Source: a virus. Taken from it: 49,305 nt of DNA. Position numbers and translations under genes: made by a program. Where the stretch lies: IMG/VR virus record IMGVR_UViG_3300001351_000015, positions 1 to 49,305 of that record; one strand, given 5' to 3'. Positions 565 to 19,793 of the stretch are shown here, in pieces. Numbering within the stretch: the first letter of the stretch is position 1; every line of letters starts with the position of its first letter. The notes beneath the pieces were generated by a model that worked only from the letters and a program-made list of their open reading frames with translations, was not told where the DNA came from and did no database searches.

Positions 565-1215
565 ATGACGCAACCACTCCAACCTTCTCAACCAGACCAA
601 GCACACCTCTCATTAAAGCAGTCGAGTCCAGTTCAGAATCTATCAAATCTGATGGGGGCATGTGGCTTCCACCAAGAGGAAGCGGTCGAGCGTATGATGA
701 CAGCTGGGTTAAAAGCAAACAAGAATTTTTCGCGTGAGCAAGCAGAGATTGAAGTATATGGTTACGCCAATTCAGAAGAAGGAGAGTTAGAAGCATTAGC
801 TCAGATCAAGCGCCTTAGAAGATCTGGTATAGTATCGAGGACAACTCAGCTAGCTACGTTGAAAGGGATGGTCTTAGATTACGAGAACGGGGTTTATAAG
901 AAAGGGCTCACAGCTTTGACTGTTCTTAAGGCGATGGAGTTATTAAATAAGATGAACGGTTACGAAGCTCCAGAAGTTCACGAGCACAAACATGAACACG
1001 AGCATGAGATAGTTACATTCCCAGTAGTCGAGCAACCATTTAAGGGAGAGCTTGAACCTTTACAAGTTACGGACATGGACGAAAACGTAAGAGCAAAGAG
1101 AAATGAAACTATGACTCAAACTCAAACCAACACAGACCACACCCAAACCACAGAGATAATTGATATAGAACCTTCAAGTCCAAGCGAAGGCTTGACCATG
1201 GAAGATGATTGGTAG
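565..1215 (+). CDS. probable terminase small subunit
   Basis: This 216-residue protein is probably the DNA-recognition subunit of the packaging motor. Residues about 25-130 are helical. The segment around ALTVLKAMELLNKMNGY resembles the end of the helical core of many phage small terminases, where a conserved 'K(A/M)-ELL-K' helix precedes a variable tail. A histidine/glutamate-rich stretch (HEHKHEHEHE, around 140-148) and an acidic C-terminus ending MEDDW follow; acidic tails in this family contact the large subunit. It is the first gene of the rightward operon, but unusually 12.7 kb upstream of the large subunit. The start follows an ATTATG context without a clear ribosome binding site. The assignment rests on pattern only and a general DNA-binding protein is possible. 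Confidence 0.5.
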   Translation: MTQPLQPSQPDQAHLSLKQSSPVQNLSNLMGACGFHQEEAVERMMTAGLKANKNFSREQAEIEVYGYANSEEGELEALAQIKRLRRSGIVSRTTQLATLKGMVLDYENGVYKKGLTALTVLKAMELLNKMNGYEAPEVHEHKHEHEHEIVTFPVVEQPFKGELEPLQVTDMDENVRAKRNETMTQTQTNTDHTQTTEIIDIEPSSPSEGLTMEDDW

Positions 1216-1638: not shown

Positions 1639-1947
1639 ATGTCAATCACTCCAAGCCAAAAACGAAACCACGAAGGCAAGACTAAGTTTAAAGGCTCAGT
1701 CTCAGGTGAGGTGTTAACCTCTGGAACTGATGAAGTTATTGCTATGCAAGATGGTGCTGGTAACGACGTGGTAGTAGGTGGACTATCTATCGTATGCACT
1801 GATGCTCTGGGCATAAAGTTAAATGAAGAGACAAATGTTCATCAATTTGCTGCTGGCGACAAGTTTACCTTTGAGGGTATAGATATCAGAAAGATTACAG
1901 TAGTAGAAACAGCTGTGACTATTAACTACAAAGGGTTACACTACTAA
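1639..1947 (+). CDS. hypothetical probable virion protein, 102 aa
   Basis: The family is not recognised. The protein is predicted to be beta-rich, with glycine/threonine/valine-rich strands throughout (for example KFKGSVSGEVLTSG and NDVVVGGLSIVC), which suits a small structural or fibre-associated protein. Its stop codon overlaps the start of the large adhesin gene (TAATG at 1945-1949), so the two are probably translationally coupled. Its start has the ATTATG context and no obvious ribosome binding site. Confidence 0.55.
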   Translation: MSITPSQKRNHEGKTKFKGSVSGEVLTSGTDEVIAMQDGAGNDVVVGGLSIVCTDALGIKLNEETNVHQFAAGDKFTFEGIDIRKITVVETAVTINYKGLHY

Positions 1948-4241
1948 TGAAATTTGGCTACACTAATGGGTTTGGTGTAGGTAGTGGAGTTACAGGCTAC
2001 CCTGAAGAAGGTGGAGTCGAACCCACTATTTTAAGAATCAACACCGAGAACGCAGGCACATCAGCCTCAGACTCTTTCACGTTAGCTCTTAAGTCAGACC
2101 AGACTTACGACTTTACAGTTGATTGGGGTGACGGTAACATAGAGGCTATAACTAGCTCTACTAACCAAGTTCACCAGTATGACACAGCTGGGTTCTACGA
2201 CGTTAAGGTTATTCCTCAAGAAGATGGCACAGGCTTTCCGGGTTTCTATTACGTGGGAACAAACGACGACACTAAGATAACTCAGCTTAGGCAGTGGGGT
2301 GGGATTAAATTCTCATACTTCGCTGACTCATTCTGGGGTTGTAGCAATATGGAAATGTTAGCTACTGATGCATGTGATGTTGACGCAGTGGAAAGTATGT
2401 ATAGAGCATTCAACTTCTGTTCTTCTATGGTTAACCCACCTATATTTAAAAGCACTGCTAACGTGACCACGATGGGTCTTATGTTTGGTAGCTGTACTGG
2501 TTTAACTGCCCCTGCTGTCACATCAAACCTTACTAATTGTACTGTTGTAACAAGCATGTACTCAGGGTGCACTAGCCTCGCTAGTTTCCCAGTCATGGAT
2601 TTCTCTTCGTCTTCTGTTATAGCGGCGGCAACCTTCTTAAATGGGTGCTCTAGTTTAACTGGCGCGGCTCCATCTTACGATATGAGTAGCTTCACTTCTG
2701 CTAATAAATTCTACTCTAACTGTTCAGGTATTACTTCTATACCTTATTGTGATACTGGTTCAGTAACAACTGGGTCAGGTTTGACTCAAATATTCAATGG
2801 TTGTTCGAGTGTAACTACTTTCGGTGGTCTTAACTTCGCAGGTATCAATGGTTCAGCTGGTGGATCTCACTTCACTGGGTGCTCAAGTGCCACAACCATA
2901 TCAGCTCTAGATAATATGACAAATGTAACGAGTGGGTTTACATTCAATGGAATGTCTTCTATGACAAGCTTCCCAGCTGTTGATGTATCTTCATTTACTA
3001 ACCTAAGTGACTTCTTCAAAAATTGTTCTTCAATGGTTACTGCTCCATCACTGACTACTACAGCTTGCACTGATATGGGGTATATGTTCTATGGCTGTAC
3101 TCTCTTGACCACTGTGCCTGTTTATGATACGGCGGGAGTGTTGAGCATGGATTATTGCTTTCAACTTTGCACCTCACTCACAACAAACCCTGCTTGGGAT
3201 TATTCTGATGTGACTAATCCAAGAGCTATGTTCTTGAGTTGTTCAGGTCTTACTAGTGCATCAGCAATGGATTTCAGTTCTGCAACTACTTTGTCTAGCT
3301 TGTTCGCTTACTGCTCAGATTTAACTACATGTGGAACATTAACTACATCAACTTCGCTTACTGTATTAAGTAGCTTATTCAATGGCACTGGAATTATAGA
3401 CGCTCCAACAATAACAGTCACAAGCAACGTTACGAACTGGGCTAGCATGTTCTTGAACTCGTACGTTGAGACTTGCCCGACTTACGACACAAGTGCGGCA
3501 ACTGATATGAACCAGATGTTTAAAGATATATATAGTTCAACTCTAGACATACCTGCTTTCGATTTCTCCAATGTCACTAACCTATTAAGGTTTGCGCCAG
3601 GATTAACCGCTGGATCAAGAGGTGCTAGGAGTCTACCAGCTATCAATGCTCCAAATTGCACAACTGCTTACCTCATGGGATACACAAATCCTAATTTGAC
3701 TAGTGTCGGTACGCTTACGATAGGTGGTGCGTCTACTTGTAATTGCTCATATATGTTCTGGGGAAGTGCTAACTTGACTGGTTCAATAACAATGGTGGCT
3801 GGATCTGGTGTAAACAATATGAGTTACTCTTTTAGGGGGACTGGTATAACAGGAATCACATTAACTGGAACGTCAGGAGTTACTAGTTTTATAGAAGCTT
3901 TCTATCTAGCCTCAAGTTTAGCTAGTGTCAATTTAATTGATACAAGCGCGGCGACCAACTGTACTGGCATGTTTAGGTCTTGTACTGCGCTTGAAGGGTT
4001 TGCTATGCCAACCTTTGACCTTGGCGCAATGACTACAGGTACACTTATGTTCAGCGGTTACGCTATGACAACAGCAAGCTGGGATGATTTGCTAGTAGCC
4101 ACAGAAGCTAACAACACTGACCTAGACTGTACTTGGCATGGTGGTAATGCTACCTACACAGCTACGGGTGAAACTGCTAGAGATTTACTAACTGGAAGAA
4201 CTCCGGGCTGGTCAATTACAGACGGTGGATTGGAGCCATAA
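1947..4241 (+). CDS. tail adhesin with BspA/DUF285-type repeats
   Basis: A 764-residue protein that is probably a receptor-binding tail fibre. Residues about 45-95 hold a PKD-like beta domain with the signature VDWGDGN. From about 120 onward come repeats of roughly 22-24 residues in the style M(F/Y)xGC(S/T)xL-xxP-xxDxS, at least fourteen of which carry a cysteine at the same place; this is the pattern of DUF285/BspA-like leucine-rich repeats. That family is best known from bacterial surface proteins, where it mediates adhesion. The C-terminus (about 715-764) matches the usual DUF285 cap with DLDCTWHGG. Stop and start overlap the next gene (TAATG at 4239-4243). Its role as virion adhesin is inferred from its place among fibre genes. 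Confidence 0.75.
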   Translation: MKFGYTNGFGVGSGVTGYPEEGGVEPTILRINTENAGTSASDSFTLALKSDQTYDFTVDWGDGNIEAITSSTNQVHQYDTAGFYDVKVIPQEDGTGFPGFYYVGTNDDTKITQLRQWGGIKFSYFADSFWGCSNMEMLATDACDVDAVESMYRAFNFCSSMVNPPIFKSTANVTTMGLMFGSCTGLTAPAVTSNLTNCTVVTSMYSGCTSLASFPVMDFSSSSVIAAATFLNGCSSLTGAAPSYDMSSFTSANKFYSNCSGITSIPYCDTGSVTTGSGLTQIFNGCSSVTTFGGLNFAGINGSAGGSHFTGCSSATTISALDNMTNVTSGFTFNGMSSMTSFPAVDVSSFTNLSDFFKNCSSMVTAPSLTTTACTDMGYMFYGCTLLTTVPVYDTAGVLSMDYCFQLCTSLTTNPAWDYSDVTNPRAMFLSCSGLTSASAMDFSSATTLSSLFAYCSDLTTCGTLTTSTSLTVLSSLFNGTGIIDAPTITVTSNVTNWASMFLNSYVETCPTYDTSAATDMNQMFKDIYSSTLDIPAFDFSNVTNLLRFAPGLTAGSRGARSLPAINAPNCTTAYLMGYTNPNLTSVGTLTIGGASTCNCSYMFWGSANLTGSITMVAGSGVNNMSYSFRGTGITGITLTGTSGVTSFIEAFYLASSLASVNLIDTSAATNCTGMFRSCTALEGFAMPTFDLGAMTTGTLMFSGYAMTTASWDDLLVATEANNTDLDCTWHGGNATYTATGETARDLLTGRTPGWSITDGGLEP

Positions 4242-4462
4242 TGAGTATAATCACACCAAATGAAGACGGTAAATCTGATTGCTCGGATGAGCATTGGGTT
4301 ATTAGACACAATGGAACTGAGTTACTTCAATTCGAGTATCATGAGGGGAGAGTGACTACTCCAGATACTTTGGAATGTTTCGACGATGAAACAGAAGCTA
4401 GAGAGCGCGTAGCAGAACTAGGACTCACTGACCCAGATGGATTGCTTGATGAGAACGATTAG
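4241..4462 (+). CDS. small acidic hypothetical protein, 73 aa
   Basis: No known family. The protein is acidic, with a central beta stretch (HWVIRHNGTELLQFEY) followed by a helix (DDETEARERVAELG). It is coupled by TAATG to the adhesin gene upstream and its 3' end overlaps the start of the receiver-domain gene, making it the first member of a compact three-gene cassette (4241-5301) between two tail fibre genes. It might be a partner of the receiver protein, but only gene order supports this. Confidence 0.55.
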   Translation: MSIITPNEDGKSDCSDEHWVIRHNGTELLQFEYHEGRVTTPDTLECFDDETEARERVAELGLTDPDGLLDEND

Positions 4463-4907
4463 AGTAGCTGCCTTAGATGACCAGAAGGATATTCTGTTTG
4501 CACTAGAGATGCACGTAGCTCAGTACAACAAGAAGACTACTGACGGGATTCACGTAGAACTAGATCCTTACTCAGATCCTGATGAGTTCTTAGCAAACTA
4601 CAACCACGACCTAGCAGTACTTGATATCGACCTAAGAAATCCAGAGTTAGATGGGTTCGACGTAGCTAGATTAGCCTACAAGATCCACCCTAAAGGGAAC
4701 TTTATCATGAGAAGTTCTAGCATAACAGAGGAAGATGAAGATAATCATGAATGTTTGATGGGGAAAGTAACAGGATCTAACTTTGTTAGCGAACTAGTGA
4801 AACGTTACTTAGATATGTCGGTCAGCTTGAAGACTAGGATATCTAATAAAATAGAGGTCTTTGACCAAGCTAGGGTTTTCTCAAACGCGCATGCACATGC
4901 AATTTAA
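4449..4907 (+). CDS. CheY-like receiver (REC) domain protein
   Basis: This is a stand-alone response-regulator receiver domain. Counting from the ATG at 4449, the N-terminal strand is followed by the acidic pair D10-D11 (ALDDQ), the strand AVLDIDL contains the predicted phosphoacceptor D59, the loop 'PELDGFDVA' follows as in CheY, the serine run SSS at 89-91 sits where the switch Ser/Thr lies, and K106 (MGK) matches the conserved lysine. Thus all five hallmark REC positions are filled. The last 30 residues form a helix and a short tail with no DNA-binding domain. An in-frame ATG four codons upstream (4437) is an alternative start. It overlaps both neighbours. No histidine kinase is present in the window, so phosphorylation, if any, would come from the host. 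REC genes are rare in phages, and its place among virion genes is unexpected. Confidence 0.75.
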   Translation: MRTIRVAALDDQKDILFALEMHVAQYNKKTTDGIHVELDPYSDPDEFLANYNHDLAVLDIDLRNPELDGFDVARLAYKIHPKGNFIMRSSSITEEDEDNHECLMGKVTGSNFVSELVKRYLDMSVSLKTRISNKIEVFDQARVFSNAHAHAI

Positions 4908-5301
4908 TGACGAAGAGGAAACAAAGGTACATACGGTGTTTGAAGGATTATCAGATGAAGAGATTGCTAATAACGCAAAGCTAGAATCTCGTATTAAGAA
5001 AGTTGTTAACAGCTTACCTATGCCTCAAAAGCACAGAGAGCTAGTCAGTGAGATCATAATTCAATTAGCTAACGAGCTAGTAGATGATAAGCTAAAGAGA
5101 TTTGGTGAGAGGCTTGGAACCCTAGAAGAATCTAGGAAAGATGACAAGCACGAACGTGAGATGAAAGACAAGGACCAAGACGGCGTGATGGAGAAACTAG
5201 AAGAGAGGTTGGAAGGTAAGGTTCAATCAGCTATCTACGTGGTTTCAGTAGTTGGGTTCTTTGTTGTCGTGGCAGCTACCATCATAGCAGCAGTGTTGTA
5301 A
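4891..5301 (+). CDS. coiled-coil protein with C-terminal membrane anchor
   Basis: A 136-residue protein from the ATG at 4891 (a second ATG lies at 4897; an in-frame TTG at 4861 is less likely). Residues 20-105 are highly charged and helical and likely form a coiled coil. The last 26 residues (about 111-136) form one strongly hydrophobic segment with no charged residues after it, typical of a tail-anchored membrane protein. The gene begins inside the end of the receiver gene and ends one base before the collagen-like gene. A helical KHREL motif with H48 loosely recalls a histidine phosphotransfer helix, but this is speculation. A holin or membrane-tethering role is an alternative. Confidence 0.6.
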
Positions 5302-5302
5302 G

Positions 5303-5932
5303 ATGCCTACTAGATTAAGATCCACTAGCCAGAGTGACATTAATATGGCGCTCAGTGAACTTGAGCGTGAACTCACAAACAAGGTAAGGGATCTTAGAGA
5401 CCAGATTAAAAGAGAGCTAACCCACTCAGGTAGCTCTAGTTCACCTCCGGGCTCAGCAGGATCTGACGGATCATCAGGGACTCAAGGTCCACAGGGTGAG
5501 ACAGGTGAGACAGGTGAGCAAGGGCCTCAAGGATTACAAGGACCAGCAGGAGTAGACGGTGCTGACGGTCAGACTGGACCTCAAGGCCCAGCAGGTCCGA
5601 TAGGTCCACAAGGACTGCAAGGTAACACAGGACCACAAGGAGCTCAGGGTTTAAGTGGTGTAGGAAGTACAGGACCAGTTGGACCTACTGGACCAGTCGG
5701 ACCTCAAGGCCCAGCAGGGGCTAGTGGCTCAGCGTCAGATGAACTAAGGAAGTCTCACATTGACTCTGTAGATAGCAACTTAACATACTTTGGGTCAGCG
5801 CCTATAGGTTCATTAGATACAGAAGCAGTTTGGACAATCTTTAGAATAGATGAAACCAACTACCCGTCTATAAGAACTAACGCGGTAGCTAACAGTCAAT
5901 GGGCGAACGTGGAGATATTAACTTATAGTTAG
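5303..5932 (+). CDS. collagen-like tail fibre protein
   Basis: A 209-residue fibre protein. Residues 1-45 form a helical, probably trimerising, coiled coil. About 50-145 consist of Gly-X-Y triplets of the GPQGxQG type with GPAG, GPVG and GETG units, interrupted near GLSGVGS. The last 60 residues are a small globular head that includes [13 protein letters not shown]. Collagen-like triple helices occur in many phage fibres, where the repeat spans a rod between attachment domain and tip. The next gene starts immediately after its stop, so the two are likely co-translated and may form successive fibre segments. Confidence 0.8.
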
Positions 5933-8380: not shown

Positions 8381-9392
8381 TGAGCTAGGGATACCGGCAT
8401 TACCTACAGGACTAACACTGTTGGGAAAAGTATATGCGGCTGATGCAACACAGGAAGGATCTAACGTATCCATGACTGAGGGTGCTAGTGGTGTTTACAA
8501 AGGTGACTTTTCTCTAGCTGCTGTAGCTGATGGTGAGTACATGATTAGCTACGAGACAGCTACTAAGAAATACGGATATGGGTTTTTATTCGTTCGCAAC
8601 AATGCTTCGGTATCTCAGTATGAATTTGAGAAGAAGTCTGAAGCTGATACTAGACAGACTGCTTTGATCACAGAGATCGACGCAAACGAAACCAAGATAG
8701 ACGCTCTAGAAACTAAGGCTCAGGCTGACACAAGGCAATCTACCCTTGTGTCTGAGCACGATGCAACTCAAACGGATATTGCGAATCTAAATGATTTGTC
8801 TGTAGATGATGTCTGGGATGAGGTGATTGATAATGTAAATCACAACACAGCCAAGTCAGCAGGAAAGAGATTGCGACAGGCAGGCACTTCTCTTGCTGTA
8901 GAGGGTACAGTAGATGATGTCTCTCCAACTACAGGGTCTTTTGTTTCTGATCTCACTCAGACAAATTCAAGCTTTTATGCAGACCAGACTTGCATTTTTG
9001 TCGATGGAGATTTAGAAGGTCAAGCTAGAGTGATTACTAGCTATGACTCTGGAACTAAGGTTTTGACATTTGATGAGCCTTGGACTGTGGCTCCAGCTAA
9101 TGGTGATGAGTTTGAAATCAAGGCAGATCATATACATCCAGTATCTCAGATTCAAGATGGATTAGCTACTCAGGCCAGTGTTGATTTGATTGAAACTAAG
9201 GCTCAAGCTGATGCTAGGCAAGCTACCTTAGTAGCTGACATTGACGCTACTGAAACCAAAGCAGAAGCTGATATCAGACAAGCTATATTAGAAGCTGACA
9301 TATCAGCACTGGATGTTAAGCTCACTGACGTTCAACTTAAACAACTGACTAAAGAATTTTATAAACTAGTAGAAGGATATGAGGATAGCTAA
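8373..9392 (+). CDS. coiled-coil tail protein with ETKAQAD repeats
   Basis: Counting from the ATG at 8373, this is a 339-residue protein; an in-frame TTG at 8355 is less likely. The first 90 residues form a beta domain. Two helical regions (about 90-140 and 260-320) carry repeats of the type ETKAQADxRQxxL, at least four copies, typical of trimeric coiled-coil stalks. Between them lies a beta domain (about 160-245) with FVSDLTQTNSSFYADQ and GQARVITSYDSGTKVLTFDEPW, a domain seen in many phage tail and baseplate proteins. It overlaps the following membrane protein gene by one base (TAATG). Confidence 0.6.
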   Translation: MSNELGIPALPTGLTLLGKVYAADATQEGSNVSMTEGASGVYKGDFSLAAVADGEYMISYETATKKYGYGFLFVRNNASVSQYEFEKKSEADTRQTALITEIDANETKIDALETKAQADTRQSTLVSEHDATQTDIANLNDLSVDDVWDEVIDNVNHNTAKSAGKRLRQAGTSLAVEGTVDDVSPTTGSFVSDLTQTNSSFYADQTCIFVDGDLEGQARVITSYDSGTKVLTFDEPWTVAPANGDEFEIKADHIHPVSQIQDGLATQASVDLIETKAQADARQATLVADIDATETKAEADIRQAILEADISALDVKLTDVQLKQLTKEFYKLVEGYEDS

Positions 9393-9925
9393 TGCTTGAC
9401 GCAGCCCTAAGTCTAGCCACTGCTTCGGGTGGTGGCGCAATCCTTGGTCTAATTGGCAACTGGATTGCAGGAAGTGTTGAGAAGCACAAGATGACCCTTG
9501 AGGCTGCAAGGCGGTCGAATCAACAAACGATAGATGGAATCAGAGATCATGCTAAAGAATTTAAAATCAGTGAGGCTTATAAAGTTATTAGAAGACTCAA
9601 GATCTGGGGCTTTGAATGGACTCATGAATATACGAAAATCCCTAAAGCTATTAATCCTCCCTTTGCTTCTAGCGTCTTGCTCATCACGTGGACCTACTGT
9701 GCATGCACCCTCGTCTGCTTCTTACTTGGGGATATCATCGTTGCAACACAAAATCCAACAGCTGAACCAACAGTCACGTCATGGGCATGGGGTGCATGGA
9801 GCCAGCAACATTCAAATGACACTATCTCCGTGGTCACGTTCGCGAGCGTGGGAACGTATATGGCACACTTTCTCGCTTTCATCTTATCTGCCGTCATCAC
9901 AGGAGTCGTCCCTAAAAGAGGTTAG
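9392..9925 (+). CDS. membrane protein, possible holin or inner-membrane lysis protein
   Basis: A 177-residue protein with a glycine-rich hydrophobic N-terminus (about 5-28), a charged helical stretch (about 30-85), and two hydrophobic segments near 90-117 and 147-172. It resembles a group of phage proteins encoded near tail genes that begin with a GA(I/V)LGLIGN-like segment and are variously called holins or structural proteins. A second reading frame inside this gene encodes a lipoprotein (9624-9983), the arrangement classically seen for Rz/Rz1 spanin pairs. A holin role, or an inner-membrane spanin-like role, is therefore plausible, although canonical Rz has only one membrane segment. Confidence 0.5.
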   Translation: MLDAALSLATASGGGAILGLIGNWIAGSVEKHKMTLEAARRSNQQTIDGIRDHAKEFKISEAYKVIRRLKIWGFEWTHEYTKIPKAINPPFASSVLLITWTYCACTLVCFLLGDIIVATQNPTAEPTVTSWAWGAWSQQHSNDTISVVTFASVGTYMAHFLAFILSAVITGVVPKRG

Positions 9926-9983
9926 TGGTGGAAACATCAGTTCCTCTGGTAACATAGACCCCAGCAAGGAGCTACCAAAATGA
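9624..9983 (+). CDS. nested Rz1-like outer-membrane lipoprotein (candidate o-spanin)
   Basis: This 119-residue frame starts inside the membrane protein gene, shifted by one base. It opens with a textbook lipoprotein signal: basic MNIRKSLK, the hydrophobic run LLILPLLL, and the lipobox LASC, with C19 as the lipidation site. The mature part is polar and serine-rich without further membrane segments. The frame continues 58 bases past the stop of the overlapping gene, and its own stop overlaps the next start (ATGA at 9980-9983), filling what would otherwise be an odd gap. The lambda Rz1 gene is nested in Rz in the same relative frame. Mature Rz1 proteins are usually shorter and richer in proline, and the ribosome binding site is weak, so some doubt remains. 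Confidence 0.55.
   Translation: MNIRKSLKLLILPLLLASCSSRGPTVHAPSSASYLGISSLQHKIQQLNQQSRHGHGVHGASNIQMTLSPWSRSRAWERIWHTFSLSSYLPSSQESSLKEVSGGNISSSGNIDPSKELPK
9966..9971 (+). promoter_or_regulatory. strong ribosome binding site inside the lipoprotein frame
   Basis: AAGGAG lies eight bases before the ATG at 9980. It is embedded in the last codons of the nested lipoprotein gene and fixes the start of the 1298-residue fibre gene. Confidence 0.7.
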
Positions 9984-13894: not shown

Positions 13895-15340
13895 ATGCCA
13901 CAAAAGATTATATGGAAGCCAAACCCCGGACCTCAGACGGATGCGTTCTTAGCGCAGACTGATGAGGTCTTCTATGGTGGAGGGCGTGGGTCAGGAAAAA
14001 GTTCTTGGCTCTACGGTAAAGTAGTAGATCACGTACAAAGATATCGAGGGAAGTCTAAGATGATCTTCTTTCGTGAGAACTTTGATGACCTAGCTGACCT
14101 TATAGATAAAGGTAAGGACATATTAGAAGAGCATGACCTAGCTACTTTTGTGTCAGGTCAGACCAGAACCTTCAGATTCAAAGGCCCTTTCGAGGGTGCG
14201 TGGCTCAAGATGAGACAAGTGGAACACATTGATGATGTAAAAAAATATAAGGGTCACGAATACACATTGATCGGATTCGATGAGATCTGTGACTTCAAGC
14301 TCCCGTTTGAGACACTTCATGATACTTTTATGGCTACGCTTCGTAACCCCCATGGAATCAAAGGGCAGGTTATATACACAGGAAACCCCGGAGGTTTTAA
14401 CCACAACGCCGTTAAGGAATATTTCATAGATCCATGGCCTACTGGTAGAAGGATCATACAGAATGAGTACGGTCAGACTAGAGTATTCTTTCAGTCTACG
14501 GTATTGAACAATCCAATGCTAGCTAACGACGAAAACTACATGCGCCAGCTAGAAACTATCAGAGATCCTGCATTAAGAAAGGCTTGGCTCTACGGTGATT
14601 GGAACGTAGCACTAGGTGCAATGTTCGCTGACGTATGGGATAAAACCAAACACCAATTAGATTTCTCAATAATGGATAGTGATATCCCTGTCCACTTCCC
14701 ACGCTATCGCTGTCTTGACTGGGGTAGTTCTACTCCTTTCAGCTACCTAAGATACTTCATATCTACTGGTGAAACACTGAACAACGGGATGTGGTTTCCT
14801 AAAGGTGCTATCGTTTTCTACGCTGAGTATTATGGGTGGCAGCCCGGAATGAAGAAGAACGAAGGGCTTAAGCTTTCCTCTGAGCAGGTGGCTACGGAGA
14901 TTAAGAGGCAAGAAGTAGCGTCAGGTTATCACCACTTAATAGAAGCAGGCCCTGCGGATACCCAGATCTTCCAAGTTCTAGATGGTACACCTATCTATGA
15001 TTCATTCTTTAAGCATGACATTAAATTCGCGGCAGCTAACAAGGCAGCGGGTACGGATGCAGTAGGTTGTGAGAGAATCAGGACCAGACTAGTAGGGTAT
15101 GACGACCACCCAGCTCTGTTCTTTACTAGAGATTGTGTCAACGCCATAAGAACTATACCTTCTTTGGCTAGAAATAAGCTACATCAGGATAAACTAGCAC
15201 CATATCAAGAGGATCACAGTTTTGACTGCGTTAAGTATGTGTGCTTGGCAGCTGAGAAATTACCTGATACTCAGGCAGATATAGTACAAACCAAAACATA
15301 TCAAGACGAGTTCTTGAGACAACTGAATGAAGAGGACTAA
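13895..15340 (+). CDS. terL: terminase large subunit
   Basis: The 481-residue packaging motor ATPase-nuclease, which pumps genomic DNA into the prohead and cuts concatemers. The ATPase shows a Walker A GGGRGSGKS (28-36), Walker B TLIGFDE (124-130) and the coupling motif YTGNPGG (161-167). The RNase H-like nuclease domain shows LDWG with D275, a second acidic site GPAD near D355, and HSFDCVKY with D444. Length and motif order are those of a complete large terminase. The ATG at 13895 lies ten bases after an out-of-frame ATG at 13885. It abuts the portal gene, as usual, but the presumed small subunit is far upstream. Confidence 0.93.
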   Translation: MPQKIIWKPNPGPQTDAFLAQTDEVFYGGGRGSGKSSWLYGKVVDHVQRYRGKSKMIFFRENFDDLADLIDKGKDILEEHDLATFVSGQTRTFRFKGPFEGAWLKMRQVEHIDDVKKYKGHEYTLIGFDEICDFKLPFETLHDTFMATLRNPHGIKGQVIYTGNPGGFNHNAVKEYFIDPWPTGRRIIQNEYGQTRVFFQSTVLNNPMLANDENYMRQLETIRDPALRKAWLYGDWNVALGAMFADVWDKTKHQLDFSIMDSDIPVHFPRYRCLDWGSSTPFSYLRYFISTGETLNNGMWFPKGAIVFYAEYYGWQPGMKKNEGLKLSSEQVATEIKRQEVASGYHHLIEAGPADTQIFQVLDGTPIYDSFFKHDIKFAAANKAAGTDAVGCERIRTRLVGYDDHPALFFTRDCVNAIRTIPSLARNKLHQDKLAPYQEDHSFDCVKYVCLAAEKLPDTQADIVQTKTYQDEFLRQLNEED

Positions 15341-15342
15341 GC

Positions 15343-17493
15343 ATGCAGGGTAATTCAAACGTAATACTACCAGCTCATGTACAGGGAATTAGCAAACCCA
15401 AAGACACTAAAGAGCCTGAAAGTTCTCTGTTCGTTACACTAAGTAGACTTCTAGAATCATGGAAGACTTACAGAAAGAATACAGTCGAAGGTGATTGGAA
15501 CAGAGCCTTTGATAACTTCAAAGGAAAGTTTGATGACAGCTTAGATAAATCATACGGTCAAGGCTCAGGGTGGAGATCAAAAGCTTTCTACCCATTGACT
15601 GAACAGAAGGTGATGGGTGCTCAAAGCCAGTTACAAGATATCTTATTCAAAGGCATGGCCTTCCCTTACAACATTAAGAACTCTCCGATCCCAGATAACC
15701 CAGAGCTATCAGGGCTTACTAAGGATCCAGCTAACAAAACAATTGACCCTAACGCACCTGATAAATCAGCAGAGATAAAAGCTTTTGAAGAGAGAATGAA
15801 GAACATGAAGAAGGTTCTTGATGATCAATTAGTAGAAAGTGATGCAGCTTCTGTAGGGTTGATGAGTATATTTGATGGGGCTTTGTACGGCTCATCATTT
15901 TTCGAGTGCCCTAAAACTGTCAGAAAGAAAAGATATATATGGGATAAAGGAAAGAATGGGAACTACACTAAGAAAGAAAAGTTTGAAGACGTACCTACTG
16001 TAGAGAGATTAGATCCTTGGGATTGCTGGGCAGATCCAGAGTGCCAAGGTAATATCCAAACAGGGTTAGGTTTCTTCCACAGACAGAAGCTATCTATAGT
16101 AGATGTGCAAAAACTTTATAACCTAGTCTTCGACGTAAAGACAGAAGGCACAGCAACAGGAACTGAATCACATGATTATATCTACAATAAATCGGAGTTC
16201 GATGCACTCCTTTCAGATATCACCGATAACGGATACAAAGGACATAGGCCAGAGGTCAACTCGGCGACAGATCCAAAAGAAGCAGAAGAGAACAGAGTCT
16301 ACCATGTGTACACCTTTTCAGGAGCAGTTAAGAATAGCCTTCTTAAGGAGTTCATGGAAGTAGAAGGTAGAGATGAGTTTCATTCAGAAGCTATCATAAC
16401 TTTCTGCAACGGTAGGGTTATCAAGTCCGTACTGAATCCTTATCCCGGAGGTAGGAGGCCTTACCACATGTCTCCATGGACAAGAATACCCGGAAGTCCT
16501 TACGGTAGAGGCGTAGCTGAGAAGATCTTTGACGCTCAGAAGAACGTGAACCGTTTGATGAGAATGTACATCGACAACAAGAGGTTATCTGGAAACATGA
16601 TGACAGCTATCGACAAGAAGAAGCTGGCCAAGGGATCTAAGCTAGATGTCTACCCCGGAAAGAACTGGGAATTTGACGGTGGCTATGCAGAGAATGACGT
16701 GAACAAAGTCTTACAACCTATCTTCTTTCCTGATGTAACTGATGGTGTGCTTAGTGCAATCAGTACCATGGTTGAATGGGCAGATGTTAGTTCAGGTGTA
16801 CCAAGAATCTTAGAAGGAAACGCAGGCGCGTCTAGTTCTACAGCTTTCTCGGACAATCAAAGACTGATGGCAGCTAGTAAACAGCTTGGTCTAGTCTTAA
16901 AGAACTTTGACATCTACGCTTGGGTTCCAATAGTAGAATCTTTCTATGATTGGAACATGGAGTTCAATAAGGACACCACTATTAAAGGTGACTTCTCTAT
17001 TGTGGCTACTGGTTTCTCTACGTTTGAAAGTAGAAACATGAGAAAGGCTGAGCTAGAAAGAATCATGATGATCAGTCCACAGGTTCCAGAGTTAGCGGAA
17101 AGAGTTAAGCCTGAACCACTAGTGAATGACTGGAGTGAAGCAGCTGGTGTAGATCCAGAAAGATATTTGTTAACTGAGAAAGAAGTGATGGCTAAGAGCC
17201 AATCACGTCAGCAAGAAGAAGTAGCTCAGGTCCAAGGCCAACTACAGATGCAATCAGAGATGGCTGCAATGGAGCATGAGCGCAAGAAAGAATTACTCAT
17301 ACTAGAGAATCAGGTTAGTGGTGCAGTAAGAGCAGAGCTTGAGAGTATGAAGTCCCAGACTAAACTACTAGTGCAGCAAACGAAAGAGCAACATGAAAAG
17401 CTCATAGCTTTAGCTAATATAGAATCCAAATCAAAGGAAAAACCAAATGGAAGAGGAAACAAAAATAGGGGCGGTAGAGGAAATCCTCAGTAA
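15343..17493 (+). CDS. portal protein (head-tail connector)
   Basis: A 716-residue portal, which forms the dodecameric ring through which DNA enters and leaves. Typical features are ERLDPWDCWADPEC (about 225-240), the core segment PGSPYGRGVAEKIFDAQKN followed by a long helix with NVNRLMRMYIDNKR (about 385-425), and a glutamine/glutamate-rich coiled coil at about 620-690, the place of the portal barrel. The C-terminus is a short glycine/arginine-rich tail (GRGNKNRGGRGN) which lies where the next gene overlaps in another frame. The position after terL supports the call. Its size fits portals of short-tailed phages. Confidence 0.85.
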   Translation: MQGNSNVILPAHVQGISKPKDTKEPESSLFVTLSRLLESWKTYRKNTVEGDWNRAFDNFKGKFDDSLDKSYGQGSGWRSKAFYPLTEQKVMGAQSQLQDILFKGMAFPYNIKNSPIPDNPELSGLTKDPANKTIDPNAPDKSAEIKAFEERMKNMKKVLDDQLVESDAASVGLMSIFDGALYGSSFFECPKTVRKKRYIWDKGKNGNYTKKEKFEDVPTVERLDPWDCWADPECQGNIQTGLGFFHRQKLSIVDVQKLYNLVFDVKTEGTATGTESHDYIYNKSEFDALLSDITDNGYKGHRPEVNSATDPKEAEENRVYHVYTFSGAVKNSLLKEFMEVEGRDEFHSEAIITFCNGRVIKSVLNPYPGGRRPYHMSPWTRIPGSPYGRGVAEKIFDAQKNVNRLMRMYIDNKRLSGNMMTAIDKKKLAKGSKLDVYPGKNWEFDGGYAENDVNKVLQPIFFPDVTDGVLSAISTMVEWADVSSGVPRILEGNAGASSSTAFSDNQRLMAASKQLGLVLKNFDIYAWVPIVESFYDWNMEFNKDTTIKGDFSIVATGFSTFESRNMRKAELERIMMISPQVPELAERVKPEPLVNDWSEAAGVDPERYLLTEKEVMAKSQSRQQEEVAQVQGQLQMQSEMAAMEHERKKELLILENQVSGAVRAELESMKSQTKLLVQQTKEQHEKLIALANIESKSKEKPNGRGNKNRGGRGNPQ

Positions 17494-17689
17494 CGAGGAG
17501 ATCCTTAGCCTAGCCACTAGGCCCGAAGTTAAGAAACTAGTCGAGTACTTAAAAGCTAGACTAACAGAAACTAGGGCTACAGTAGACACTGTTAGTCAGA
17601 CGAGCCTGCCCAACTTACAGGGCAGGATCATAACACTAAAAGAAATTATAGACCTATTTGAGGATATTATAGATGAGTCAAGGAGTTGA
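17447..17689 (+). CDS. small helical protein between portal and scaffold, 80 aa
   Basis: Family not recognised. The protein is acidic and fully helical (EEILSNEEILSLATRPEVKKLVEYLKARL), with a heptad-like leucine/isoleucine pattern. It starts inside the portal gene (47 bases overlap), where a GGAAAA-type purine run precedes the ATG, and its end overlaps the scaffold start by 17 bases. Small helical genes between portal and scaffold occur in many phages and may help assembly; here that role is only inferred. Confidence 0.55.
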   Translation: MEEETKIGAVEEILSNEEILSLATRPEVKKLVEYLKARLTETRATVDTVSQTSLPNLQGRIITLKEIIDLFEDIIDESRS

Positions 17690-18719
17690 TAATGCCGGAA
17701 GCGGAGAACAAACCCAAGCCAACCAAGAAGAAGGACCAAGCCAAGGGAGTCTCACCGACGCCCAAATCTTCGCCCAAGAAGCAGCCAAGCTCACCGAAGG
17801 CGGTGACCTCGGAAGCGGAAACCAAGAAACCAAAATCGACAGAATCGACAACAGCTTCGACCAAGCCCCAGCTGAAAGAAGTGAAGAAGCCCCAGCCGCA
17901 GAAGCCCCAGCCAGTCCAGAGCAAGAGCAGGAGCCGACGAAACCGGAGGTAGATTCAGCCGACGGAGTAGAAGGCGACGACAAAAAAGAGCGCAACAGTT
18001 GGAAAGAGTGGAAGACTAAGTACGAGAAAGAAGCTCAGGATAGAATTGATTTAGAGAACAGGCTAGCTGCCCTAGAGCAGCAAGCTAACACTAATAAAGA
18101 GGAACCGGAGGCAGCTAAGGAGCCAGAGGCTGAACCTGAAACACCTTTCGAGGCGACACAGGAAGTTAAAGATTTACTTGACTACACTCCGGGTCTTAAA
18201 GAATACATGCAGCACGAGATAACAGAGGCTGCAAAGTCCATGACTCGTGAGATCATTGATAATAAATTATCTGAAAGAGACGCTCAGGCTACCCAAGCAC
18301 AAGAGCAAGAAGTCGTCAAGAAAAATGAGTCTACATTTTGGGATAGTGTAGGTGATTGGTTCGGATCTGAGTACCCTGAACTCAGTCTTTTGGATGTTAG
18401 AAACTCCCCAGAGTTCAATGACTGGCTGAGTTCTAAGAAGAACTGGGTTGACTCCCAGTTAAAATCTGCCTCAAGTGCAGATGACATATCAGGTGCGAAA
18501 ACAGTTTACTCTCAGTATGTAAACACCATGATGCCACAAGCATCAAAGGCTACAGAACCAGAAGTAGACACAGCAAAAGATGATAAGCTTGCTGCTGCTA
18601 GGACACCTAGCATGGCTAGCAGCCCACCTACTAACTCTGATGAGCTAGGTTCGGAATGGGATAAATCCGTTGCTGCCATTAAAAAGAAACAAAACTCACA
18701 AGTTCGCACTACAATTTAA
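17673..18719 (+). CDS. probable scaffolding protein
   Basis: A 348-residue acidic, glutamate/glutamine/alanine-rich protein located directly upstream of the major capsid gene, the usual place of the scaffold that shapes the prohead and is then lost. Residues about 100-145 form a coiled coil and about 165-215 another helical stretch. The last 30 residues carry lysines (IKKKQNSQVRTTI), as in scaffolds whose basic end binds the coat protein. Up to about residue 95 codons end unusually often in C, unlike the rest of the gene. This is exactly where a second frame encoding a basic protein overlaps (17692-17952). Confidence 0.7.
   Translation: MSQGVDNAGSGEQTQANQEEGPSQGSLTDAQIFAQEAAKLTEGGDLGSGNQETKIDRIDNSFDQAPAERSEEAPAAEAPASPEQEQEPTKPEVDSADGVEGDDKKERNSWKEWKTKYEKEAQDRIDLENRLAALEQQANTNKEEPEAAKEPEAEPETPFEATQEVKDLLDYTPGLKEYMQHEITEAAKSMTREIIDNKLSERDAQATQAQEQEVVKKNESTFWDSVGDWFGSEYPELSLLDVRNSPEFNDWLSSKKNWVDSQLKSASSADDISGAKTVYSQYVNTMMPQASKATEPEVDTAKDDKLAAARTPSMASSPPTNSDELGSEWDKSVAAIKKKQNSQVRTTI
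17680..17685 (+). promoter_or_regulatory. strong ribosome binding site for the overprinted frame
   Basis: AAGGAG sits six bases before the ATG at 17692 and inside the first codons of the scaffold gene. Its spacing is ideal for the +1-shifted frame and useless for the scaffold start at 17673, which instead has GAGGA some ten bases upstream. Confidence 0.6.
17692..17952 (+). CDS. candidate overprinted lysine/proline-rich basic protein, 86 aa
   Basis: This frame lies inside the scaffold gene, shifted by one base. It starts with ATG two bases after the stop of the 80-residue gene and has AAGGAG at an ideal spacing. The protein is nearly all Lys, Pro, Ser, Thr, Glu and Gln, with KKK clusters and the ending SRSRRNRR, so it is strongly basic while the overlapping scaffold is acidic. 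The shared stretch has codons unlike the flanking scaffold, as expected when two frames constrain each other. Low complexity also allows a chance open frame, so this needs comparison with relatives. A DNA-binding or prohead-internal protein would fit the composition. Confidence 0.45.
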   Translation: MPEAENKPKPTKKKDQAKGVSPTPKSSPKKQPSSPKAVTSEAETKKPKSTESTTASTKPQLKEVKKPQPQKPQPVQSKSRSRRNRR

Positions 18720-18731
18720 TAAGACAAGACA

Positions 18732-19793
18732 ATGCCAGAACAAAATCAATACGGTGAAGTTACACAACGCACCGCCAACTCAGGCGCATTAGGTGTAAAA
18801 GCCAGTGCTAACCTGATCTTCGATTCAAAGAAGAGAATGATGTTACCAAAGTGGGGCAAGAATGAAGACATGCCTATGAACTCTGGTAGAACTATGCAAT
18901 GGCGTAGATACCACAACATCGACACTGGTTTAAATCCGATCATCGGTGACCAGAACCCTACATCAGTTAAGATGGCTTGGACTGATTTCACTACAGACTT
19001 ATACCGTTATGGTGGTGTAGTAGATCTTCCTGAGCACATGCTTAAGTTGCATGAAGACGACTTACTTAAGATCGGTGTAGATTTAATGTCTTACGACCTT
19101 TTCCGTAAGATTGAAACTTTGACTTACAACGTGGTCAAGAATGGTACAAACGCTATCTATGCAGCTGGTGCAGCCAACCGTGCAGGTATCGTTAACACTA
19201 TTACTGATACTGACATCGAAGCAGCTATCGCTACATTAGAAGAAAACAACGCAGTTGAGATCGAAGACTTAGTTACTTCATCTCCTAACTACGAAACTCT
19301 TCCAATCCAAGCTAGCTTCATCGCTTACTGTCACACTAACCTTGGTCAGGCAATTCGTAAGCTTACTAGCTTCATCAGTGTTCAACACTACGCTGGTCAG
19401 ACTGCTACACTTCCGGGTGAAATCGGATCTGTTGGTGGAAAGATTAGAGTGGTTTGCTCTAACATCGCTATGCCTTGGGAAGAAGCAGGTGGCAATCCTG
19501 CTACTAACGGCATCCGTGGTTTAGGTGGTGCAGCTCACGTTTATCCTTTTATCATCTTTGCTAAAGATGCTTTCGCTTGTACTAAGTTAGCTGGTGCTGA
19601 CAGTATGAAAGTTATGATCCACAAGCCATCTGAAAATGGTGATAGCTATGACAAGCTAGGATTAAAAGGACACATCGGTTACAAAACTTGGTTCGCTTGT
19701 ACTATCTTGAACAACGACAACTTGTTACGTATTGAGTCTGGTGTATCAGCTTACACTGCTGCTGCTGAGAATGCAGCTGGACCGGCATTCTAA
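18732..19793 (+). CDS. major capsid protein, N4-gp56 family
   Basis: A 353-residue coat protein. Its segment order fits the N4-gp56-type family of HK97-fold capsid proteins: an N-terminal arm, MPMNSGRTMQWRRYHNI (about 47-63), the long helix with LTYNVVKNGTNAIYAAG (about 135-155), and near the C-terminus LGLKGHIGYKTWFACTILN followed by LLRIESGV. The well-expressed nature of the gene is suggested by consistent use of C-ending codons in Tyr, Asn and Ile. It follows the scaffold by 12 bases and is followed by a small structural gene and a strong terminator. Confidence 0.88.
   Translation: MPEQNQYGEVTQRTANSGALGVKASANLIFDSKKRMMLPKWGKNEDMPMNSGRTMQWRRYHNIDTGLNPIIGDQNPTSVKMAWTDFTTDLYRYGGVVDLPEHMLKLHEDDLLKIGVDLMSYDLFRKIETLTYNVVKNGTNAIYAAGAANRAGIVNTITDTDIEAAIATLEENNAVEIEDLVTSSPNYETLPIQASFIAYCHTNLGQAIRKLTSFISVQHYAGQTATLPGEIGSVGGKIRVVCSNIAMPWEEAGGNPATNGIRGLGGAAHVYPFIIFAKDAFACTKLAGADSMKVMIHKPSENGDSYDKLGLKGHIGYKTWFACTILNNDNLLRIESGVSAYTAAAENAAGPAF

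Follow-up and report, generated by a model that had tools for sequence, protein, structure and literature searches.

Receivers encoded by phages

Stand-alone receiver (REC) domains encoded near tail-fibre genes have been published as CheY-like proteins in the Alteromonas phages V22, A5 and P24 (PMC10579305, PMC7289586). In the available passages of these papers, the genes of V22 (gp30), A5 (gp11) and P24 are placed in a shared host recognition module and regarded as a class II auxiliary gene (PMC10579305, PMC7289586). The REC of phage R8W has been published as the DNA-binding regulator PhoB (PMC8228385), while the cREC domains of jumbo phages have been tied to NAD+/ADP-ribose enzymes (PMC7824862). 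In the searched passages of the open literature on these phages, no mention of a pairing between a REC and a membrane coiled coil was found. No published link between phage receivers and lysis cassettes was found in the open literature consulted, in which the R8W paper treats the gene as PhoB.

Receivers had been described as rare in phages in the original prediction, and overall this holds: a tblastn search with a bacterial REC matched 218 of the 50,697 phage records, and unannotated or plainly bacterial-looking records are numerous among these matches. Nevertheless, Alteromonas phages repeatedly carry a stand-alone REC near a fibre gene; a single such REC is present in cultured Alteromonas phages from several families. 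One REC per genome was found in the eight records matching PF00072. As a separate observation, in Stenotrophomonas phage Bhz63 (L106:3992-5538) the gene of a PhoP-like response regulator precedes one whose annotation names a sensor-kinase-like domain (PRK11100 superfamily). This is an apparent two-component pair in a phage, although its second gene has no Pfam match.

Genomic context of the locus

The window, the whole stretch of DNA analysed here, comprises 49,305 bases and is a linear, possibly incomplete viral contig. Its + strand holds the terminase, portal and major capsid genes (13895-19793), and the replication genes lie on the - strand. The portal protein is about 26% identical to the portals of Roseobacter CRP phages and HMO-2011. 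The source is an uncultured tailed phage.

Table 1. Genes of the receiver locus and related features of the window
Feature	Position	Strand	Evidence
Conserved protein, probable small terminase subunit (TerS)	565..1215	+	position; TerS label putative
DUF285/BspA-type repeat adhesin, probable fibre	1947..4241	+	PF03382 E 1.3e-33; LRR_5, PKD weak
Small acidic protein, 73 aa	4241..4462	+	ORF and codon usage
Stand-alone receiver-like (REC) protein, 152 aa	4449..4907	+	sub-threshold PF00072, shuffle tests, alignments
Tail-anchored coiled-coil membrane protein, 134 aa	4897..5301	+	hydropathy and heptad scan
Collagen-repeat tail fibre protein	5303..5932	+	PF01391 E 2.3e-14; phrog_5073 tail fibre E 3.4e-30
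Multi-TM protein, candidate holin	9392..9925	+	conserved in L008 and G006

The three small overlapping genes predicted between the adhesin and the collagen-repeat fibre were all found at the expected positions, and the codon usage of each matches that of the long genes of the phage in the listed frame and in no other. The acidic gene shares 1 nt with the end of the fibre gene and 14 nt with the beginning of the REC gene; its product gave no match in a Pfam search and no convincing match in a PHROG search. An alternative in-frame ATG for the REC gene is possible at 4437. The coiled-coil gene, which begins inside the 3' end of the REC gene, would encode 136 aa if started from the alternative ATG at 4891. 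Its description as a tail-anchored coiled coil was borne out by the heptad scan and by a single C-terminal TM segment at residues 115-133. Searches for relatives of this protein found none. The small phage membrane coiled coils of the XhlA/DUF2951 type likewise combine a coil and a TM segment, but the window protein has no significant family match.

The multi-TM protein encoded further downstream shows 43% and 26% BLASTP identity to its counterparts in the related contigs L008 and G006, and has no Pfam match. Comparison by hhalign with GTA_holin_3TM-type proteins was negative, and its homology to 3TM holins is not supported. An alternative-frame ORF at 9534-9983 (+) overlaps this gene and encodes a lipobox-like motif, SCSS[QR], after a hydrophobic stretch. 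The same type of ORF overlaps the multi-TM gene at L008:5349-5744 and at L020:300-833 (-). In all three contigs it is possibly an embedded o-spanin-type lipoprotein gene; shadow conservation from the main frame may also explain it. The gene directly before the multi-TM gene in L008 (4992-5261, +) encodes 89 aa, and its product weakly matches a phospholipase A2-like family (PLA2G12, E 0.003).

Comparison with described receivers

The window REC resembles the Alteromonas CheY-like genes in being encoded downstream of tail-fibre genes and in lacking an output domain. Like the RECs of V22 and A5, it stands alone, has about 150 aa including a C-terminal extension, and is encoded on the structural-gene strand. 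In the V22 and A5 loci, as in the window, the REC also adjoins a small TM coiled-coil gene, and no phage kinase exceeds the cut-off. Unlike in V22 and A5, the coil gene of the window is downstream of the REC and its product is C-terminally anchored, and no fibre chaperone, spanin or endolysin was found beside the REC. Like the cREC domains of jumbo phages, the window REC is divergent and lies outside two-component operons (PMC7824862), whereas no NAD+/ADP-ribose enzymes were seen in the window. Stand-alone CheY-like genes near phage fibres are already known, and the window REC is a divergent further example.

Evidence for a receiver domain

The product of 4449-4907 scored 16.6 bits against PF00072 (Response_reg; E 0.0089), below the curated cut-off of 30.2 bits. 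An HMM made from 80 bacterial RECs gave 13.5 bits, a score reached by only two of 18,891 shuffles. With an HMM from eight phage RECs the score was only 2.9 bits, which 719 of 18,520 shuffles equalled or bettered, and a specific kinship to the Alteromonas-phage RECs is not supported by this result. A five-motif REC pattern, composed after the window sequence had been inspected, matched the window gene, all eight other phage RECs and 79 of the 80 bacterial RECs, compared with 0.1% of shuffles.

A full set of REC residues had been predicted, and part of it stands. D10, D11 and D59 fall on the catalytic Asp positions of RECs in nearly all alignments of at least three sequences, and S89 falls on the conserved Ser/Thr in many, although not all, multi-sequence alignments. 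The position of K106 is ambiguous. Its assignment as the REC lysine needs a β4–β5 stretch about five residues below the usual length, MAFFT mostly places K106 elsewhere, and the residue that follows it is Val instead of Pro. Further features are a two-residue insertion after D59, a short helix 4 and a C-terminal extension of about 28 aa.

Structure prediction of the receiver alone had been proposed as a check. Single-sequence AF2 gave no fold (pLDDT 35). When REC rows were supplied for the N-terminal half only, pLDDT rose to about 87–92 over residues 1-60, and the model comprised confidently predicted β1–β4 with helices, while β5 was not confident. The conserved Lys of known receivers sits just before helix 5. 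With helix 5 beginning at residue 111 in the guided model, K106 lies directly ahead of this helix, which favors it as the conserved Lys. Foldseek with the guided model returned RECs as the best matches, a result biased by the REC rows in the input. Because its alignment biases it toward a receiver, the guided model was given little weight.

No close homologues of the window REC were found in the viral contigs, genome contigs and phages searched. Its best tblastn match among the 50,697 phage records, a weak one (E 0.1), was an OmpR-type response regulator receiver, probably of bacterial sequence, in an unannotated record.

The sub-cut-off Pfam score, the failure of the phage-REC HMM and the absence of a fold in the unaided AF2 run could mean that the protein is not a receiver and that its motifs arose by chance or reflect a distant Rossmann-like resemblance. 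We consider this quite unlikely, given the rarity of shuffles that reach the bacterial HMM score, the fit of the REC motif spacing, and the clear REC that a related phage carries at the syntenic position (see below). Judged from its sequence, 4449-4907 probably encodes a divergent stand-alone REC domain, supported more weakly than the original prediction implied.

The corresponding slot in related phages

Alignment searches with terminase, major capsid and TerS-like sequences identified about a dozen related contigs, most of them short. The relative with the longest comparable fibre region is G006 (L007, L021). Its genes follow the order TerS-like gene, small gene, large fibre, REC and two small TM coiled-coil genes, and its REC exceeds the PF00072 cut-off with 33.5 bits. 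The window protein encoded at 565..1215 is 39% identical to that of L021:7691-8269 (-), which anchors the synteny. The G006 REC occupies the same slot as the window REC; no BLAST alignment was obtained between the two proteins.

In L008 the order is fibre, coiled coil and collagen gene, with the REC absent. The coil ends in a segment that is only weakly hydrophobic, and it showed a weak DUF2951 match (E 0.004). As L008 keeps a coil in this slot without a REC, the receiver is an optional part of it.

Other features of these relatives were recorded. The large terminase subunits of L005, L006 and L008 contain an intein-like insert after GGGRG that starts with CVHPDT; the window terminase is without it. 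Longer match spans indicate that L011 and L012 probably have the same insert. The DNA polymerase of another relative, G009 (L022:12585-15695, -), also has an intein-like insert (LLSC VAEGTPVLTSVGW ... VHNCNYG).

Pairing of the receiver with a membrane coiled coil

In all ten phages examined (the window, G006, PB15, XX1924, H4/4, R8W, R9Y2, A5, V22 and V19), an immediate neighbor of the REC gene encodes a small membrane-anchored coiled coil. In PB15 and XX1924, the 'response regulator' is a stand-alone REC and the coiled coil next to it has a C-terminal anchor, as in the window. The order there is fibre, membrane protein, coiled coil and REC. An M15 peptidase in PB15, or a DUF5675 protein in XX1924, comes next, ahead of a 3TM holin. 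These loci differ from the window in having the coil upstream, a 3TM holin after the REC and, in PB15, the peptidase. An IMG/VR search for relatives of the PB15/XX1924 REC found none. H4/4 and R8W have a long fibre, an annotated holin, an N-anchored coil, the REC and a membrane protein. Their 'PhoB' proteins, at 153 aa, leave no room for the DNA-binding domain of a PhoB-type regulator; they are stand-alone RECs adjoining a TM coil and a holin, and the TM coil neighbor is shared with the window.

R9Y2 has an N-anchored coil, the REC and a GH108 lysozyme. The order in A5 is fibre, chaperone, a coil with a weak N-terminal anchor, REC, a spanin-like protein, a 2TM protein and an endolysin. V22 is arranged similarly, with a papain-like amidase ahead of the coil and no annotated endolysin beside it. 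In V19 the coil and REC genes form a unit of two, and the neighbors on either side are on the other strand. The V19 protein (L113:2998-3450) is a pseudo-receiver in which the phosphoacceptor Asp, Ser/Thr and Lys have all been lost, although its coiled-coil neighbor is kept. All other phage RECs examined, that of the window included, have the three key Asp residues.

Most of the coil proteins cannot be aligned with one another, and their anchors are N-terminal or C-terminal. By a crude filter, TM coiled-coil genes numbered one of 47 genes in the window, two of the 61 sampled from V22 and one of 26 in PB15. The filter thresholds were fixed after the examples were known, the V19 coil falls under them, and the Alteromonas cases share ancestry; for these reasons no P value is given for the pairing. 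The adjacency across the Alteromonas phages may reflect common descent. The pairing of REC and membrane coiled coil is well supported.

No counterpart of the 73-aa acidic gene was seen in the other phages examined. The recurring unit therefore looks like a pair rather than the three-gene cassette originally proposed. The prediction that the window contains no kinase gene agreed with an HATPase_c search, which found none in this linear, possibly incomplete contig. More broadly, no histidine-kinase ATPase (HATPase) exceeded the cut-off in the nine REC-bearing records searched, a set that excluded R8W. A5 gave one sub-threshold HATPase match, within an 854-codon frame.

Proposed role and alternatives

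Endolysin, holin or spanin-like genes are close to the pair in most Alteromonas phages. Together with the location on the structural-gene strand, this suggests that the pair acts late and at the membrane. We tentatively propose, as a plausible reading that falls short of probable, that the REC is a late switch, phosphorylated by the host, which acts with its paired coiled coil and alters the timing of lysis according to host state. The REC would be made late in infection together with the fibre genes. Host histidine kinases or acetyl phosphate would phosphorylate D59, no phage-encoded donor having been seen. The phosphorylated REC would change shape, and this would alter how it binds its putative partner, the coiled coil on the cytosolic side of the inner membrane. 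The coiled coil would then modulate lysis, via holin or spanin timing, in line with host state. A role in lysis timing through the adjacent membrane protein had been among those originally suggested; the adjacency in ten of ten phages favors action through that protein.

Of all these loci, the window offers the weakest link to lysis. No endolysin was identified in the window and no holin or endolysin beside the pair; the candidate holin gene lies 4 kb downstream. With no endolysin or proven holin adjoining the pair, the lysis step would here be an analogy to the other phages.

Alternatively, the REC may be a phosphoryl sink that draws phosphoryl groups off host kinases, or a decoy that mimics CheY, and so dampen two-component or chemotaxis output late in infection, the coil merely positioning it near membrane kinases. 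Sequestering of phosphate signals had also been suggested originally and is possible. A stand-alone REC without an output domain and the lack of any phage kinase over the cut-off are consistent with it, as is the published reading, in the passages available, of a CheY-like class II auxiliary gene. Nevertheless, the REC sits among late fibre and lysis genes rather than early takeover genes, and the paired V19 receiver has no phosphoacceptor. On balance this explanation is rather doubtful.

The V19 pair also shows that phosphorylation is not essential in every case, because its receiver lacks the phosphoacceptor Asp. The REC fold could instead serve, independently of phosphorylation, to bind or scaffold the coiled coil. 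The retention of the pair in V19 despite a degenerate site points in this direction, as do the ambiguous Lys, the Val in place of Pro after K106 and the short helix 4 of the window REC. The three key Asp residues kept in the window and in all other phage RECs examined except V19 argue against it, and this explanation is unlikely. Both the sink and the scaffold are live rivals of the lysis-timing switch, and V19 favors the scaffold in at least one case.

Genes directly downstream of fibre genes often encode fibre chaperones or maturation factors, and tuning of fibre assembly, a further original suggestion, drew purely positional support: in both G006 and the window the REC lies directly 3' of a fibre gene, and in A5 and V22 it lies within the host recognition module, after a true chaperone. 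Such an accessory role is very unlikely, since A5 and V22 already have a separate dedicated chaperone, other genes separate REC and fibre in PB15, XX1924, H4/4 and R9Y2, and fibres vary widely whereas the REC and coil persist.

Implications

The published labels 'CheY', 'PhoB' and 'auxiliary metabolic gene' lack a tested mechanism. The recurring membrane coiled-coil neighbor, often with lysis genes nearby, offers a concrete candidate partner for these receivers. A wider generalization, rather doubtful at present, is that a stand-alone receiver with a membrane coiled coil may be a widespread phage device that senses host phosphorylation and sets the timing of lysis, having been repeatedly acquired or rebuilt in unrelated phages. 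The cultured phages with laboratory hosts (PB15, R9Y2, R8W and V22) make the lysis-timing idea testable now. If it is true, virulent phages would tune the moment of lysis via the two-component signaling of their hosts.
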